Part shown: positions 2-12,145 of the stretch, piece after piece | Layout: every line of letters begins with the position of its first letter | Position numbering within the stretch: position 1 is the stretch's first letter | Assembly: GCA_013152295.1 (NCBI GenBank) | Contig: JAADGQ010000045.1 | Span: forward strand, 1 to 40,588 | Length of the DNA: 40,588 bases | Direction: 5' to 3' | Source: Gammaproteobacteria bacterium | Lineage (GTDB): Bacteria > Pseudomonadota > Gammaproteobacteria > JAADGQ01 | Program-made: the position numbers and the translations under genes | Notes under the pieces: generated by a model | Told to the model about the DNA's origin: nothing | Seen by the model: only the letters and a program-made list of their open reading frames with translations | Database searches by the model: none

Positions 2-1816
2 GCTCACGCACCTCTGATTCACTGCAGCGACGGCAACCTGCACGCAGCAACCGAGATCTACGACCCGCGCCAGGCAGAGATCAGCGCCATACTCGGCGAG
101 GGAGCAGCGTTCCCTCTGCGTTCAACTTATGAGCAAGGTGAGGCACACTGGCTCACTTTTTTCGCTGAGCTGGGCATGTCCGCCACGCCACGAGCGGAAG
201 ACCTCATCAAGACCATCGACAACCTCATTGACGACGCCCGCAGCGAATGCAGCACAACGATCAAGCAGCGCCTGCAGCGCCTGTTTAGCTATCTGGATGA
301 ACATTGGGAAACATGGCATAACGCCACCATTCATAATCCACCGGAAGGCGGCAAAAGCACGTCACTGATTGAAGCGCTGTCGCGACGCGCGTGGCTTCCT
401 GCCATTCAGAGCGGAGAGCGCTATCCGGGATTCATCGCGCCGCCCGATCGACTCTACCGTCCAGCCGAGATCTACCCTCCAGCGCTCGGCAATCTGGTCG
501 CGAGCCAGCAGCCCGTGGCGGCTCTCTGTGCACCATCGGATGCGATTATCGAGGCGCTGCAGTTTGCCACGAAAGCGACCATCGACACCGTCAGCCGACA
601 CTTTGATCAACTACTGGAGCTCGCCAACCAAAAACAGGATAGTGGTGGTAGCAGTGCCACTGAAAATATTGAAAAAGCACTGACGACTGTCTACCAATAT
701 TTTGGTGCCATACAAGACGATGAAACGCTGGATAAACTAAAAGCACGTTATCAGGACAAACCGTGCATCTGGCACCCTGTCCAACAGCAGCTCTGGGTAC
801 CCAAACATACCTTTAAAACGCCGGTTGCCTTTTTCGAACCCCGGCGCACAGATCTGCGCGCTGAAGACCCTGACCACGATCGTGGTATTGCAGCACTCGG
901 ACGCCGCAAAGCACCATCAATCGAAGATTACATCGAGTTTCTGCAAGAGAGTCAGAACACGCACGGCAATGAGCCACTCTGCGACAGCGAAAGCCGGCAA
1001 GTGTTGCAGGTACTTCACCACCTCGGCACAGACCTGATCCAGCAGCATCGCTCCGTCGCGCTCAATCGGCTGGTGGTCTTGAGCGCTGCAAACAGGCTGG
1101 TCTCCGCCGCTGCCGGCTACATCGCTGATGCACCGTGGTATGAAAGCCGTTTTAGCAGCGAACAGGTACACTTGCTTCACAGCGAAACAGAATACAACCT
1201 GATCAAAGCAGCAAATCTCAAGCGGTTATCACAGCATGTTATTGAAAAACTGATTGATCGCCCCACTCCGTCAGAAAATGCGGTGCTGTCACAGCTTTGC
1301 GAAAAATGGCAGGATACAATACGCAGTCTTGAGTTCCGCGCAGGCCTGATTCGCCTGATCCGCCACCGCCATGGCTTCGACCAGTGCTACGAACTTAACT
1401 GGTTGCCTGAACTGTCAGTCGTTGCGGTGCAATCCATTCATGCCGAATTCTGGATGAGCGACCCGATAGAGCAGCGCCAGATTCTGGTCGGCGTCGGCGA
1501 ATCCGAATATTACCTGGATAGTGATGCAAGAGTGATCTATATGAGGGGTCAGGCTACAGACCTGATGAGCAATTTTCTCGCCAGGGCGATCAACCAACGC
1601 TTGGGCGCCCAGCAGCTTGAGGATCTTGCACCTCTTGTCGTTATACTAAACACGCCGCGCCAATACACTCAGGATGTACTCACCCAATTTCGTATTTCAC
1701 GTTATGAAAATGAAGTTATGGACGTTAACTTCCCGGAGAACGCTGAAACCGACTCTTCTTTTGAAGAGGACTTGATAAAGGAGTCGAACAATCTGAATAG
1801 GCCCGACGTAGACTAG
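2..1816 (+). CDS. Sacsin-like (Hsp90/GHKL-associated) large protein, C-terminal 604 residues only
   Basis: The reading frame is open from base 2 and runs into an internal ATG at 176, so the true start lies left of the window; the ATG is not a credible start. The first ~59 visible residues have the sacsin-repeat pattern: a short strand, an 'EIYDP' element, a conserved 'FP...Y' and 'L..F..LGM'. A second such unit follows at about visible residues 127-170 (RAWLP...LYRPAEIYPP), and a third element 'CIWHP....LWVP' lies at about 255-267. In the sacsin family these repeats follow an N-terminal Hsp90-type (GHKL) ATPase domain, which is expected upstream but cannot be seen. The tail (visible ~490-604) is acidic and ends without a DUF3883 nuclease-like domain. 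Such proteins occur in bacteria as chaperone-like or conflict-system ATPases; the function here is unknown. A roadblock and a protoglobin gene follow on the same strand. The family call rests on motif recognition only. Confidence 0.6.
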   Translation, partial: AHAPLIHCSDGNLHAATEIYDPRQAEISAILGEGAAFPLRSTYEQGEAHWLTFFAELGMSATPRAEDLIKTIDNLIDDARSECSTTIKQRLQRLFSYLDEHWETWHNATIHNPPEGGKSTSLIEALSRRAWLPAIQSGERYPGFIAPPDRLYRPAEIYPPALGNLVASQQPVAALCAPSDAIIEALQFATKATIDTVSRHFDQLLELANQKQDSGGSSATENIEKALTTVYQYFGAIQDDETLDKLKARYQDKPCIWHPVQQQLWVPKHTFKTPVAFFEPRRTDLRAEDPDHDRGIAALGRRKAPSIEDYIEFLQESQNTHGNEPLCDSESRQVLQVLHHLGTDLIQQHRSVALNRLVVLSAANRLVSAAAGYIADAPWYESRFSSEQVHLLHSETEYNLIKAANLKRLSQHVIEKLIDRPTPSENAVLSQLCEKWQDTIRSLEFRAGLIRLIRHRHGFDQCYELNWLPELSVVAVQSIHAEFWMSDPIEQRQILVGVGESEYYLDSDARVIYMRGQATDLMSNFLARAINQRLGAQQLEDLAPLVVILNTPRQYTQDVLTQFRISRYENEVMDVNFPENAETDSSFEEDLIKESNNLNRPDVD

Positions 1817-1847
1817 CGTCAGCTTAGTATACCAAGCCCAAACACCC

Positions 1848-1861
1848 GGGGAGTACTCCCC
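1848..1861. promoter_or_regulatory. Perfect 14-bp palindrome upstream of the roadblock gene
   Basis: GGGGAGTACTCCCC is exactly self-complementary. It lies 31 bases after the sacsin-like stop codon and 68 bases before the roadblock start. The symmetry suggests a dimeric-regulator operator or a small hairpin with an AGTACT loop. No T-run follows, so it is not an intrinsic terminator. The binding protein is unknown. Confidence 0.35.
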
Positions 1862-1929
1862 ACCCAAAGAGGTTCTTCGCTATTCCAAGCTTGAGCCACA
1901 CATATCCACTTAAAAAAAGGTAAATCACA

Positions 1930-2292
1930 ATGGCTAGATCCAATAAAAATCTTAACGAAATCCTCGACGAACTCTCCAAAACCAACAACGTCAATATTGT
2001 CGCTGTTGTCGGCCGGGATGGTTTCGTTATCGACAGCGCAGGCTCAACAAATATCGACATGGACGGCCTAGGCGCCATGGTTGCAACCTCCATAGGTACA
2101 TCAGAGAGCCTCGGCGGTGAATTCGCATTAGGTGAACTGTCTCAATATCTGGTTGAGTACAGCAGCGGTAAAATCATCATGGCTACTGTCGGAAATGACA
2201 TCCTTGCAGTTATTACCGATACCGATGCGGTGATTGGCGCCATTCGCTACGCGATCAAAAAGATCATTGGTGAGGTTGAAAAGGCGCTTTAA
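1930..2292 (+). CDS. Roadblock/LC7 domain protein (MglB-like fold)
   Basis: This 120-residue protein is a single roadblock/LC7 domain. It has an N-terminal helix (LNEILDEL), then 'VNIVAVVGRDGFVIDS', the typical first strands of the fold. The middle is Gly/Ser-rich (about residues 45-62) and it ends with an amphipathic helix (IRYAIKKIIGEVEKAL). Family members form homodimers that act as scaffolds or GTPase-activating partners for Ras-like GTPases, for example MglB for MglA, and they also occur in GHKL-ATPase conservons of actinobacteria. No Ras-like GTPase is visible in this window. The start ATG has an AAGG ribosome-binding site about 9 bases upstream. The gene lies 113 bases after the sacsin-like gene and 197 bases before the protoglobin gene, all on the same strand. 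Cytoplasmic, since no signal or membrane segment is seen. The domain call is strong; the partner is unknown. Confidence 0.85.
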   Translation: MARSNKNLNEILDELSKTNNVNIVAVVGRDGFVIDSAGSTNIDMDGLGAMVATSIGTSESLGGEFALGELSQYLVEYSSGKIIMATVGNDILAVITDTDAVIGAIRYAIKKIIGEVEKAL

Positions 2293-2341
2293 TCCCGTAG
2301 ACTCAATATCGTCGCGGGGTGGCTCGCCGACTGTGAACTGT

Positions 2342-2378
2342 GCTTAAGTTTAAGATGTATGCGCAAGCTAAACTTAGC
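2342..2378 (+). repeat. Inverted repeat in the roadblock-protoglobin spacer
   Basis: TAAGTTT (2345-2351) and AAACTTA (2370-2376) are exact inverted copies around an 18-base loop. The match extends outward to GC on both sides with one bulged T on the left arm. No U-tract follows, so it is more likely an operator or an mRNA structure than a terminator. A short GCGG-A-CCGC dyad abuts it at 2377-2385. Confidence 0.35.
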
Positions 2379-2465
2379 GGACCGCCTGTACGCACACTGT
2401 TTCTCTGCATAGATCGCGGCGACACCCTCATATATCCCAATAAAACCCCGACAAAAGTTTTATGT

Positions 2466-2475
2466 CCCCCCCCCC
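2466..2475 (+). repeat. Homopolymeric C10 tract next to the protoglobin ribosome-binding site
   Basis: Ten consecutive C's end one base before the Shine-Dalgarno of the protoglobin gene. Homopolymer C/G runs of this length are prone to slipped-strand length change. Here such a change would alter leader length or promoter-to-SD geometry, not the reading frame. Confidence 0.6.
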
Positions 2476-2484
2476 TAAGGAGGT
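2476..2484 (+). promoter_or_regulatory. Perfect 9-base Shine-Dalgarno of the protoglobin gene
   Basis: TAAGGAGGT is fully complementary to the 3' end of 16S rRNA and lies 5 bases before the ATG at 2490. It fixes the start and predicts strong translation. It is the strongest ribosome-binding site noticed in the window. Confidence 0.85.
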
Positions 2485-2489
2485 AATAA

Positions 2490-3065
2490 ATGTCCATCAA
2501 GGCGACTGAACTCTTCGAATTAATCTCTACGCTGATCGATTACAACGATGAGGATTGGGCGATACTAAAAGAAGAGGGGCCTCAAATAACACAATGGGCC
2601 CCAGAGTTAGTGAGCGTATTTTACGACACACTTTACGGCTTGGAAGAGACCAAAAATATCTTCTGCGAGGGAGAACGACCCAAACTCGAGAAGACGCTAG
2701 AAGACTGGATCGCCAGCATCATTGCCGGTGACAAAGGGTCAGAGTTCTGGGAGCACCAGTGGCTGATCGCACTGCTTCACGTGCAGCGTGGCGTGAGAAA
2801 CCTCTACATGCTGGGCATCATGAACCGTGTACAACAGGTCATACTCGCAAAATGCATGGAGAGCTACGATCAAGACAAAGCACATCGCGTTTTCAGTGCA
2901 TTCCTGAGAATTTCAGGCGCGGTGTCGGCGTTGATCGCTGAGTGTTACGACGAAGTGATTGAGTTAAGCACCACCGAGGGGCTCTCCAAGGTTGGCGTCA
3001 ATCCAGCACTGTTAACCCGCATCAAAGCGATGCAGATTAAAAAAATGCTGCAAGAAGCGCGTTAG
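2490..3065 (+). CDS. Stand-alone protoglobin (haem-binding globin of the globin-coupled-sensor family)
   Basis: The 191-residue length matches single-domain protoglobins (about 190-200 residues). The helical pattern and the central segment 'LIALLHVQRGVRNLYMLG' fit the protoglobin/globin-coupled-sensor E-F region. His97 in that segment is the candidate proximal haem ligand. No output domain (methyl-accepting, GGDEF or kinase) is attached, so any signal must pass through partners. Family members bind O2, CO or NO. The gene ends a same-strand trio with the sacsin-like and roadblock genes and converges on prmA 60 bases downstream. The start is fixed by the perfect Shine-Dalgarno. Cytoplasmic. A haem sensor or gas-scavenging role is inferred from the family; nothing in the sequence names the ligand. 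Confidence 0.8.
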   Translation: MSIKATELFELISTLIDYNDEDWAILKEEGPQITQWAPELVSVFYDTLYGLEETKNIFCEGERPKLEKTLEDWIASIIAGDKGSEFWEHQWLIALLHVQRGVRNLYMLGIMNRVQQVILAKCMESYDQDKAHRVFSAFLRISGAVSALIAECYDEVIELSTTEGLSKVGVNPALLTRIKAMQIKKMLQEAR

Positions 3066-3101: not shown

Positions 3102-3150
3102 AAAAAACTGAGGAGAGGAGGAGGGCTAGTGCGCTTTGCGCAAGCCCTCC
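3102..3150 (-). terminator. Long hairpin over the prmA stop codon with a distal U-run
   Basis: Read on the minus strand, GGAGGGCT+TGCGC pairs with GCGCA+AGCCCTCC (3120-3150). The loop is AAA and two bases (CT) are bulged, giving a 13-bp stem that contains the prmA stop codon. A run of six U's follows about 12 bases later (3107-3102). The gap makes it non-canonical, but it sits where the aroQ-accB-accC-prmA transcript should end. Confidence 0.4.
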
Positions 3151-4010
3151 AGCCGTATCCACCCGGCGTTGCTTACCACAGATAGCTGCTCGAACTGTTT
3201 GTCGTATACCTCTTTCACTGGCGCAGCCTGTTCCGTCAGCAGGCCAGAGAGAATCAGTCGACCATGGGCAGGGAGTAGGGTAGCAAAACGCGGTGCCAAT
3301 TCAATCAATGGTCCCGACAAAATATTCGCCAACAAAAGGTCACAGCGCGTCACTGAAAGTTGCTCCGGCAGACAGACCGTCAAACAACCATCAACACCAT
3401 TCTGCCGCGCATTGTCCTGCGTCGCCAACAGTGCTTGGGGATCGTGGTCTACCGCCCACACATGTTTGGCACCTAGCATGAGTGCCGCAATCGCCAACAC
3501 CCCTGAGCCACAGCCATAGTCGATCACGTCGTGTCCTTCCACATCAGCACGAGCCAACCACTGAAGGCAGAGCGCGGTGGTTGGATGCGTGCCAGTACCA
3601 AAGGCCAGTCCGGGATCGAGAAAAATATTAATCGCCCCACTGCGGGGAGGCTTACTCCAACGCGGACAGATCCATAAATCCGCCCCGAAATGCATCGGTT
3701 TAAAGTCAGCCTTCCATTTATTCACCCAGTCATCATCGTCCAATGCAGCAACACTGAAACCAAGCAGCTCAGACACCTCAAGGCCACTGCACAGCTGATC
3801 TGCCACTGCACTGATATCAGCAGCACCATCGAACAGTGCCGTCACCCGGATGTGACGCCAATAAGTTTCGCTACCAACGGGAGGTTCGTAGACGGGGTCA
3901 TCACCAAGATCTTGCAGCGTCACTGCAGCGGCACCCAACTCATCCAAAAGATCCGATATCAGAGTGGCGTTATCTGGCGTGGCCTCCAGACTGAGTTGCA
4001 ACCAAGTCAT
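3126..4010 (-). CDS. prmA: Ribosomal protein L11 methyltransferase PrmA
   Basis: PrmA uses S-adenosylmethionine to methylate ribosomal protein L11 in the cytoplasm. The protein begins MTWLQLSLEATPDNA, the typical PrmA N-terminus (L11-recognition domain, about residues 1-100). The methyltransferase domain carries the SAM-binding motif 'VIDYGCGSGVLAIAAL', and 'FGTGTHPTT' precedes it. The ATG at 4010 gives 294 residues, as in E. coli PrmA; the frame stays open upstream to 4055, but that extension has no homologous character. It lies 79 bases downstream of accC and is probably the last gene of the aroQ-accB-accC-prmA transcript, a common gammaproteobacterial arrangement. It converges with the protoglobin gene. 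Confidence 0.95.
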   Translation of the reverse strand: MTWLQLSLEATPDNATLISDLLDELGAAAVTLQDLGDDPVYEPPVGSETYWRHIRVTALFDGAADISAVADQLCSGLEVSELLGFSVAALDDDDWVNKWKADFKPMHFGADLWICPRWSKPPRSGAINIFLDPGLAFGTGTHPTTALCLQWLARADVEGHDVIDYGCGSGVLAIAALMLGAKHVWAVDHDPQALLATQDNARQNGVDGCLTVCLPEQLSVTRCDLLLANILSGPLIELAPRFATLLPAHGRLILSGLLTEQAAPVKEVYDKQFEQLSVVSNAGWIRLEGLRKAH

Positions 4011-4089
4011 GGTCGTTATCGTTAAAGGTGAACAGGTTCGTTTACGGCACCACAAATAACGTGGCAGACCAATTGCGGCGCGGACACGC

Positions 4090-9465: not shown

Positions 9466-9909
9466 ATGAGTCCATTCCAGCTACTTTTTGCCCTTTTCAT
9501 TATTGTTCCCGTTATTGAGATCTACCTGTTAATCGAAGTCGGTGGACTCATTGGTGCCATCCCGACAATTTTGCTGATTATTCTTACTGCAATTGCAGGT
9601 GCCTTTCTGCTCAGGGCACAGGGGCTTAGCACCATGCACCGACTGCAAGAGACACTGCGGCAGGGAGAAGTTCCCGCCATCGAAATGGTCGAAGGGATGA
9701 TGCTGCTAGTCGGCGGTGCGCTGCTGCTGACCCCTGGTTTTTTTACTGACACCATCGGCTTTATCTGCCTCATTCCTCCGCTGCGCCGCTGGTTTATCCA
9801 ATCGTTTGTACTGCACTATGTTGGCAATGCCTCTACCGGCCCTCACCCACAAGGGCATCACACCCCAAAAACCATCGAGGGTGAATTCAAGCGCGAGCCG
9901 CGCGATTAG
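9466..9909 (+). CDS. fxsA: FxsA family membrane protein
   Basis: FxsA is a small cytoplasmic-membrane protein. In E. coli its overproduction relieves F-plasmid exclusion of phage T7; its normal role is unknown. The 147-residue protein has hydrophobic segments at about 4-24, 26-48 and 78-105. It shows the family motifs 'VPVIEIYLLIEVGG', 'GAFLLRAQGL' and 'GGALLLTPGFFTD', with a polar His/Gly-rich cytoplasmic tail. It lies directly upstream of groES in the same direction, as in E. coli. The 242-base gap to groES contains the groE promoter and CIRCE. Confidence 0.92.
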   Translation: MSPFQLLFALFIIVPVIEIYLLIEVGGLIGAIPTILLIILTAIAGAFLLRAQGLSTMHRLQETLRQGEVPAIEMVEGMMLLVGGALLLTPGFFTDTIGFICLIPPLRRWFIQSFVLHYVGNASTGPHPQGHHTPKTIEGEFKREPRD

Positions 9910-10030
9910 GCACTGCTTTCTCAGCTAACAACCACTCTCCACAATACGACATGCCTTCGGCACTCGGCGCAGCTACGCAAGCCATGCTCTAAACAGGCTG
10001 TTAAATTTTCCCAAAAAAGTGCGGCATGCC

Positions 10031-10058
10031 TTGACTCTCTGATTTTCGTCCCTATTAT
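10031..10058 (+). promoter_or_regulatory. groESL promoter (sigma-70 type)
   Basis: TTGACT (10031-10036), a 16-base spacer and TATTAT (10053-10058) form a near-consensus housekeeping promoter. Transcription would start near 10065, inside the CIRCE operator. The overlapping CCTTGAC...CCCTAT could loosely resemble a heat-shock sigma-32 site, but the sigma-70 fit is better. Confidence 0.75.
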
Positions 10059-10061
10059 CTG

Positions 10062-10088
10062 TTGGCACTCGAATGGGGTGAGTGCCAA
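10062..10088. promoter_or_regulatory. CIRCE operator (HrcA-binding site)
   Basis: TTGGCACTC-N9-GAGTGCCAA is a perfect 9-9-9 inverted repeat, one base per arm away from the consensus TTAGCACTC-N9-GAGTGCTAA, with the change compensated in both arms. It overlaps the predicted start point, so bound HrcA would block groESL transcription. hrcA itself is not in the window. Confidence 0.93.
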
Positions 10089-10151
10089 TTGCTCTACCCC
10101 ATATTCAATTTTAATCGTTAACTAATTGTTTTTATTTAGGAGAATCGACAG

Positions 10152-10442
10152 ATGAAGATCCGTCCTTTACATGACCGCATCATCCTTCGTCGCTTGGAGG
10201 AAGAACTTAAATCAGCGGGTGGAATCGTGATTCCTGATTCCGCAGCAGAGAAGCCTGTTCGGGGCGAAGTCATCGCTGTTGGTAATGGCAAAATCCTCGA
10301 CAACGGCGAAGCCCGCCCACTTGACGTCAAAGTTGGCGACACCGTGCTGTTCGGCAAATACTCCGGCACCGAAGTGAAAGTTGATGGCGAAGAGCTGCTG
10401 GTGATGCGCGAAGAAGACATCATGGCTGTTATCGAAGGTTAA
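10152..10442 (+). CDS. groES: Co-chaperonin GroES
   Basis: GroES forms the heptameric lid of the GroEL folding chamber. The 96 residues begin '[18 protein letters not shown]' and contain the mobile loop '[15 protein letters not shown]' (about 21-35) that docks on GroEL. They end in the conserved '[11 protein letters not shown]'. An AGGAG ribosome-binding site lies about 9 bases before the ATG. It is first in the groESL operon, controlled by the CIRCE element, with groEL 50 bases downstream. Confidence 0.98.
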
Positions 10443-10462
10443 GCGACAACACCATTCGATAA

Positions 10463-12145
<1,683 letters not shown>

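Follow-up and report, generated by a model that had tools for sequence, protein, structure and literature searches.

Known globin and roadblock signalling systems

The only precedent found for the genes considered here is HGbRL of Methylacidiphilum infernorum, in which a haem globin is joined to a Roadblock/LC7 domain and is proposed to signal ligand binding to that domain; the M. infernorum genome also has two genes of the MglA/MglB-like kind as a pair (PMC4476040). The present subject is a pair of neighbouring genes, encoding a Roadblock/LC7 protein and a stand-alone protoglobin, in a 40,588-nucleotide stretch of gammaproteobacterial DNA (the window), which is the left part of contig C176 in a genome assembly of 2.46 Mb and 181 contigs. 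HGbRL is a single fused protein of 274 amino acids, has a globin of the HGbI/flavohaemoglobin type and is reported from Methylacidiphilum only, whereas the pair described here consists of two genes, contains a protoglobin and occurs in Gammaproteobacteria, in another proteobacterial class and in Thermus, partly in the same operon as a GTPase.

Three further systems invite comparison. The Group 3 MglA systems of the beta- and gamma-Proteobacteria (PMC4316618) resemble an operon on contig C6 of the window's genome, which encodes a GTPase of the MglA type, two roadblock proteins and a protein that may be receiver-like, and they share with it the DAR motif at G5 and a G4 motif without Lys. In the text of that survey, however, the words 'globin' and 'heme' occur 0 times, and the window locus differs from these systems in being without a GTPase gene. 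Globin-coupled sensors such as AfGcHK and HemAT have a globin of the same family (PF11563), with a proximal His and a distal Tyr; theirs are fused to a kinase, a receptor or a cyclase, whereas here the output would be a separate roadblock protein. Actinobacterial conservons (CvnA-D) place a roadblock protein and a small GTPase in one operon with a sensory input, and the loose parallel with them that was drawn in a preliminary description of this locus is borne out at the level of GTPase systems of that type. The conservon input is the histidine-kinase-like CvnA, whereas here it would be a haem globin; CvnA and CvnC are absent from the window and C6 loci.

What signal most bacterial GTPase systems of the MglA/MglB type respond to is an open question, as is the role of stand-alone protoglobins; that of the Methanosarcina acetivorans protoglobin is described as 'still unknown' (PMC3680402). 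The linkage of globin, roadblock protein and GTPase reported below addresses both questions as a hypothesis, that of a gas-controlled Ras-like switch in bacteria. In a search that covered open-access papers, none contains both 'roadblock' and 'protoglobin', and the sole match to globin, MglB and roadblock together is the HGbRL paper; with this scope the novelty is provisional. Provisionally, then, what is new is the haem input to GTPase-roadblock signalling, which is itself of a known kind.

The roadblock-protoglobin pair

The roadblock-protoglobin pair is judged to be the finding at this locus, and the large sacsin-like gene in front of it to lie outside it. The class was surveyed for roadblock genes and protoglobins in 369 genomes, and genes within 400 bp of each other were counted as adjacent. 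Such a roadblock neighbour is found for 19 of the 26 stand-alone protoglobins and for 0 of the 87 fused protoglobin domains (Fisher test, 3.9e-16), in counts that are not fully independent because some of the genomes share a genus. Among the GTDB contigs of ~85,000 named species, pairs of the window type occur at 7 loci, all in metagenome-assembled genomes of Gammaproteobacteria and 7 of 7 with the matching roadblock gene. A phylum-wide search adds pairs in another proteobacterial class (L104-L107).

The two genes diverge in parallel. Globin and roadblock distances correlate across 22 pairs with r=0.82 (reached in 0 of 20000 permutations) and inside the window's lineage with r=0.66 (4 of 20000), both correlations being inflated by shared ancestry. 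The same genome carries a second pair on contig C181 (L009, 8951-10100); a sensor histidine kinase that includes a receiver domain, a response regulator and an ABC substrate-binding protein are encoded nearby. The recurrent pairing suggests a largely undescribed route by which a gas signal is fed into a GTPase switch. The preliminary description had proposed a gas- or redox-responsive module, and a gas-responsive one that consists of globin and roadblock protein has gained support: the pair is widespread, and in Thermus as well as in several Gammaproteobacteria a small GTPase gene belongs to the same operon.

As a separate observation, proteins with an AAA_22-type ATPase domain adjoin roadblock-globin pairs at three loci (L057, 168-2492; L070, 4207-6405; L067, 886-2682).

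The globin and the roadblock protein

The window globin matches PF11563 over residues 13-154 (E=1.2e-15; 58.3 bits against a curated cut-off of 25). No output domain was found in its polypeptide by profile search, the frame of 191 amino acids matching PF11563 only, as had been described; ~35 C-terminal residues past the globin domain are conserved within its lineage. His97, previously named as the candidate haem ligand, lines up with the His that is conserved among protoglobin domains of known structure, and F44, Y45, W73 and H97 are invariant across 20 aligned proteobacterial stand-alone globins. The ligand His and the distal Tyr are also kept in the Thermus globins that adjoin a roadblock gene. 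The globin is predicted to bind haem and a diatomic gas.

In a maximum-likelihood tree the roadblock-linked globins group together and are separate from those fused globin domains that were sampled; the support of 93/76 is less than this tree requires for a strongly supported group. The five unpaired stand-alone globins in the sample lie inside this group as well, and the two unpaired globins of this genome (contigs C28 and C47) nest in roadblock-linked lineages. No relatives of the window globin were found among viral contigs. Elsewhere (L131, 7927-10057), three stand-alone protoglobins stand in tandem, with no roadblock gene in the 15 kb read.

The roadblock protein was correctly described as a pure domain: 120 residues long, it matches PF03259 over residues 9-95 (E=3.5e-14; 52.7 bits against a cut-off of 23). 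The closest solved chains are those of MglB (E=8e-9), and against the MglB equivalog of NCBIfam (NF052242) it scores 18.4 bits, below the cut-off of 200. The same type of roadblock gene adjoins the globin in every other locus found for the window globin's lineage.

Linkage to a small GTPase

At six gammaproteobacterial loci the globin gene lies inside a GTPase-roadblock operon. In four of these (L044, L045, L047, L050) it shares the operon with two other conserved genes (c3, c2), a small GTPase gene (PF03029/Ras-like), the second roadblock-like gene c4 and a roadblock gene; the other two (L048, L051) have the same operon genes, the globin included, minus the GTPase. Four further loci (L046, L049, L052, L053) have c2, c3 and c4 around the pair.

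The earlier remark on the absence of a GTPase is true of the window alone: elsewhere in this genome, on contig C6 (L012, 4104-9191), a GTPase of the right type is encoded. The operon there comprises the GTPase, c4 and roadblock genes, then PAS and PhnD-like substrate-binding genes, and has no globin; the L047 globin gene is located exactly between c4 and the roadblock gene. The C6 GTPase contains VDAR (the DAR of G5) and TRMD (G4 without Lys), matches PF03029 and Ras, and finds MglA among solved structures (E=2e-7). The two MglB-like proteins of the operon are the roadblock protein, which scores above the cut-off, and c4, a weak roadblock match below it. In c2, D48 and K92-P93 are invariant and the matches to solved structures fall mostly on receiver domains, weakly (E 0.4-1); its resemblance to the protein of Group 3 MglA systems with a receiver and a winged helix-turn-helix is weakly supported. 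The GTPase profile is matched in 13 of the 17 pair-bearing genomes, including this one (on C6).

The linkage extends beyond the class. One cluster of the other proteobacterial class (L133, 2981-8323) holds two globins, several roadblock genes, a small GTPase and a beta-lactamase-fold gene of the ODP family, whose member in Treponema has been described as sensing oxygen (PMC7666581). Among plasmids, a protein search matched four Thermus records. In T. oshimai JL-2 and T. thermophilus SNM1-7 the genes for a DUF4388 protein, a small GTPase, a roadblock protein and a protoglobin follow one another, and in JL-2, where GTPase, roadblock protein and protoglobin are THEOS_RS12005, THEOS_RS12010 and THEOS_RS12015, a PAS-GGDEF-EAL gene comes next. 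The set recurs in T. brockianus GE-1, where two extra globin genes stand between the GTPase and the roadblock gene and an EAL-domain gene comes after it. The operon is also present in T. brockianus SNM4-1, the roadblock gene not being listed between GTPase and globin. Cultured members of a second phylum thus have globin, roadblock and GTPase genes together in a single operon, which makes the hypothesis directly testable. On the T. brockianus plasmid pTB1 (L135, 4420-6525) there are three protoglobin genes in a single operon, and the middle one is without the haem-ligand His and the distal Tyr.

The sacsin-like gene and c27

Neither Pfam nor NCBIfam gives a match to the part of the large protein that lies in the window, and no relatives of this C-terminal part were found in sequence searches; it matches the PADLOC profile for TmtA, the Tiamat anti-phage protein (E=3.6e-33). 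The missing N-terminus, which the preliminary description had proposed to recover by extending the contig leftward, was found by a TmtA profile search of the same genome, in a frame that runs off the right end of contig C110. This half matches TmtA (E=2.6e-95), SACS of Pfam (PF25794; E=7e-70, 236 bits against 32.8) and sacsin-N of NCBIfam (E=8e-17), and its nearest solved structure is sacsin (E=3e-40). The protein is thus sacsin-like, as had been said, by virtue of the SACS/GHKL domain on C110; a single SACS domain was detected, and the sacsin-type repeats reported earlier were not seen in the window part. It agrees with Tiamat in that both halves match TmtA profiles and in its GHKL/sacsin N-terminus. 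It differs in that the gene is split over two contigs and is judged to lie outside the module.

Just upstream of the N-terminal half, C110 encodes c27, a protein of 355 amino acids (L092, 10472-11539). Relatives of c27 lie directly beside a roadblock gene at three loci (L059, L060, L067) and 385 bp from one at L065; at three of these four loci the gap is 52-107 bp. Because the large gene is split over C110 and C176, and because of c27, the two contigs are very probably neighbours in the genome; they have no exact overlap, and a gap lies between them. Among the frames inspected before the sacsin gene on C110, the only GTPase is an ordinary EngB-like one.

The c27 protein is a candidate further member of the module. 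Its similarity to the relatives named above is low, 15-19% over the full-length alignment and 18-24% over the C-terminal domain. Suggestive motifs raised the idea of a degenerate GTPase, which was rejected (profile comparison with the GTPase, probability 0.1%; no significant match among solved structures; poor AlphaFold model, pLDDT 44). At L067 the AAA_22-type ATPase domain and a region resembling c27 are parts of one fused protein.

Proposed mechanism and alternatives

AfGcHK senses O2 through its protoglobin domain (PMC11841059), and MglB serves MglA as its GTPase-activating protein (PMC4476040, PMC9481161). On these precedents gas-dependent control of a GTPase is the favoured model, in which the roadblock and protoglobin genes would form a two-protein input unit of GTPase-roadblock (MglA/MglB-type) signalling. 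The protoglobin would bind O2 (or NO/CO) via its haem, and its ligand state would alter its contact with the roadblock dimer. The dimer would then control the nucleotide state of a small GTPase of the MglA type, from which the signal might go on to a receiver-like protein (Gammaproteobacteria) or to a cyclic di-GMP enzyme (Thermus). The window and C181 pairs both lie away from the GTPase operon, and use of the C6 GTPase by the window pair is a guess. Of the functions considered, sensing of O2 (or NO/CO) by the globin, with the roadblock dimer relaying the state to an MglA-type GTPase, is the most likely and is moderately probable. The wider proposal is evenly balanced: stand-alone protoglobins would constitute a widespread class of haem sensors that so far has no name and that occurs in two phyla or more, acting in trans on Roadblock/LC7 proteins so that an MglA-type switch becomes responsive to O2 or NO, with a transcriptional or cyclic di-GMP output. 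If true, it would provide a function for most gammaproteobacterial stand-alone protoglobins.

Several observations weigh against this model. Gene order and strand of the pair vary between loci, and in two genomes of the same family (G001, G002) the pair is arranged convergently. No GTPase gene adjoins the window pair or its counterpart on C181, and four pair-bearing genomes (G192, G054, G317, G102) are without a match to the GTPase profile, so that the pair may depend on a different GTPase or on no GTPase at all. The pair might then be a gas sensor and adaptor whose roadblock dimer signals to the c27 protein, to histidine kinases or to cyclic di-GMP enzymes. Kinase or response-regulator genes do occur near the C181, L048 and L051 pairs, and c27 stands upstream of the roadblock gene in this genome as its relatives do beside or near one in others. 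The GTPase, however, shares the operon at L044, L045, L047, L050 and L133 and in Thermus, and signalling free of a GTPase seems rather unlikely. It is distinctly improbable that the globin is an enzyme or a store (for NO detoxification or O2 supply) merely co-located with roadblock genes. The M. acetivorans protoglobin is reported to process reactive gases in vitro (PMC4020757); against such a role stand the specific adjacency to roadblock genes in many lineages and two phyla, the paired divergence of the two genes and the finding of no reductase partner beside them.

The preliminary description had all three genes acting together, the globin modulating a sacsin-like, chaperone-like GHKL ATPase through the roadblock dimer. 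The large gene is indeed on the same strand, 113 bp from the roadblock gene, and its product does bear a GHKL/sacsin domain. A SACS domain, however, occurs anywhere in only 2 of the 17 pair-bearing genomes, adjoins the pair in the window's genome alone and in the other lies on a different contig; the closest relatives (G001, G002) have the pair without any sacsin gene. Adjacency confined to one genome, the outcome that the preliminary description had named as fatal to its proposal, is thus what is found for the sacsin gene and not for the roadblock-globin pair. As c27 adjoins the roadblock gene in relatives, the most economical interpretation has the sacsin/TmtA gene inserted between the two. 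It matches a single-gene anti-phage family and is probably a separate defence gene and a chance neighbour. The ATPase was accordingly dropped from the module, and joint action of the three genes is highly improbable.

Surroundings of the pair

The three same-strand genes lie where they had been described (see the table). Sequences resembling ribosome-binding sites precede both small genes. The gap between them contains a perfect 8-nucleotide inverted repeat (TAAGTTTA/TAAACTTA, 2345-2376), possibly a regulator site or a product of chance. No terminator-like site was found in this gap, and a promoter and terminator scan gave a result not above chance.

Features at the left end of the window (positions in the window)
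Feature	Position	Strand	Remarks
Large gene	2..1816	+	604 amino acids, open-ended frame, 5' end cut by contig; C-terminal half of sacsin-like TmtA (Tiamat-type) protein
Roadblock/LC7 gene	1930..2292	+	120 amino acids, single domain, MglB-like fold; partner of the globin
Roadblock-globin gap	2293..2489	+	197 bp; Shine-Dalgarno sequence of the globin gene, TAAGGAGGT, at 2476-2484
Stand-alone protoglobin gene	2490..3065	+	191 amino acids; proximal His97 (F8), distal Tyr45 (B10); without output domain
PrmA methyltransferase gene	3126..4055	-	convergent; downstream border of module

Downstream of the globin gene, on the opposite strand, are core genes named from their sequence as PrmA, AccC, AccB, AroQ and DsbD; PrmA and the pair are on separate contigs in relatives. 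Further downstream (9466-11998) lie an FxsA gene and a GroEL-type chaperonin gene, both ordinary core genes.

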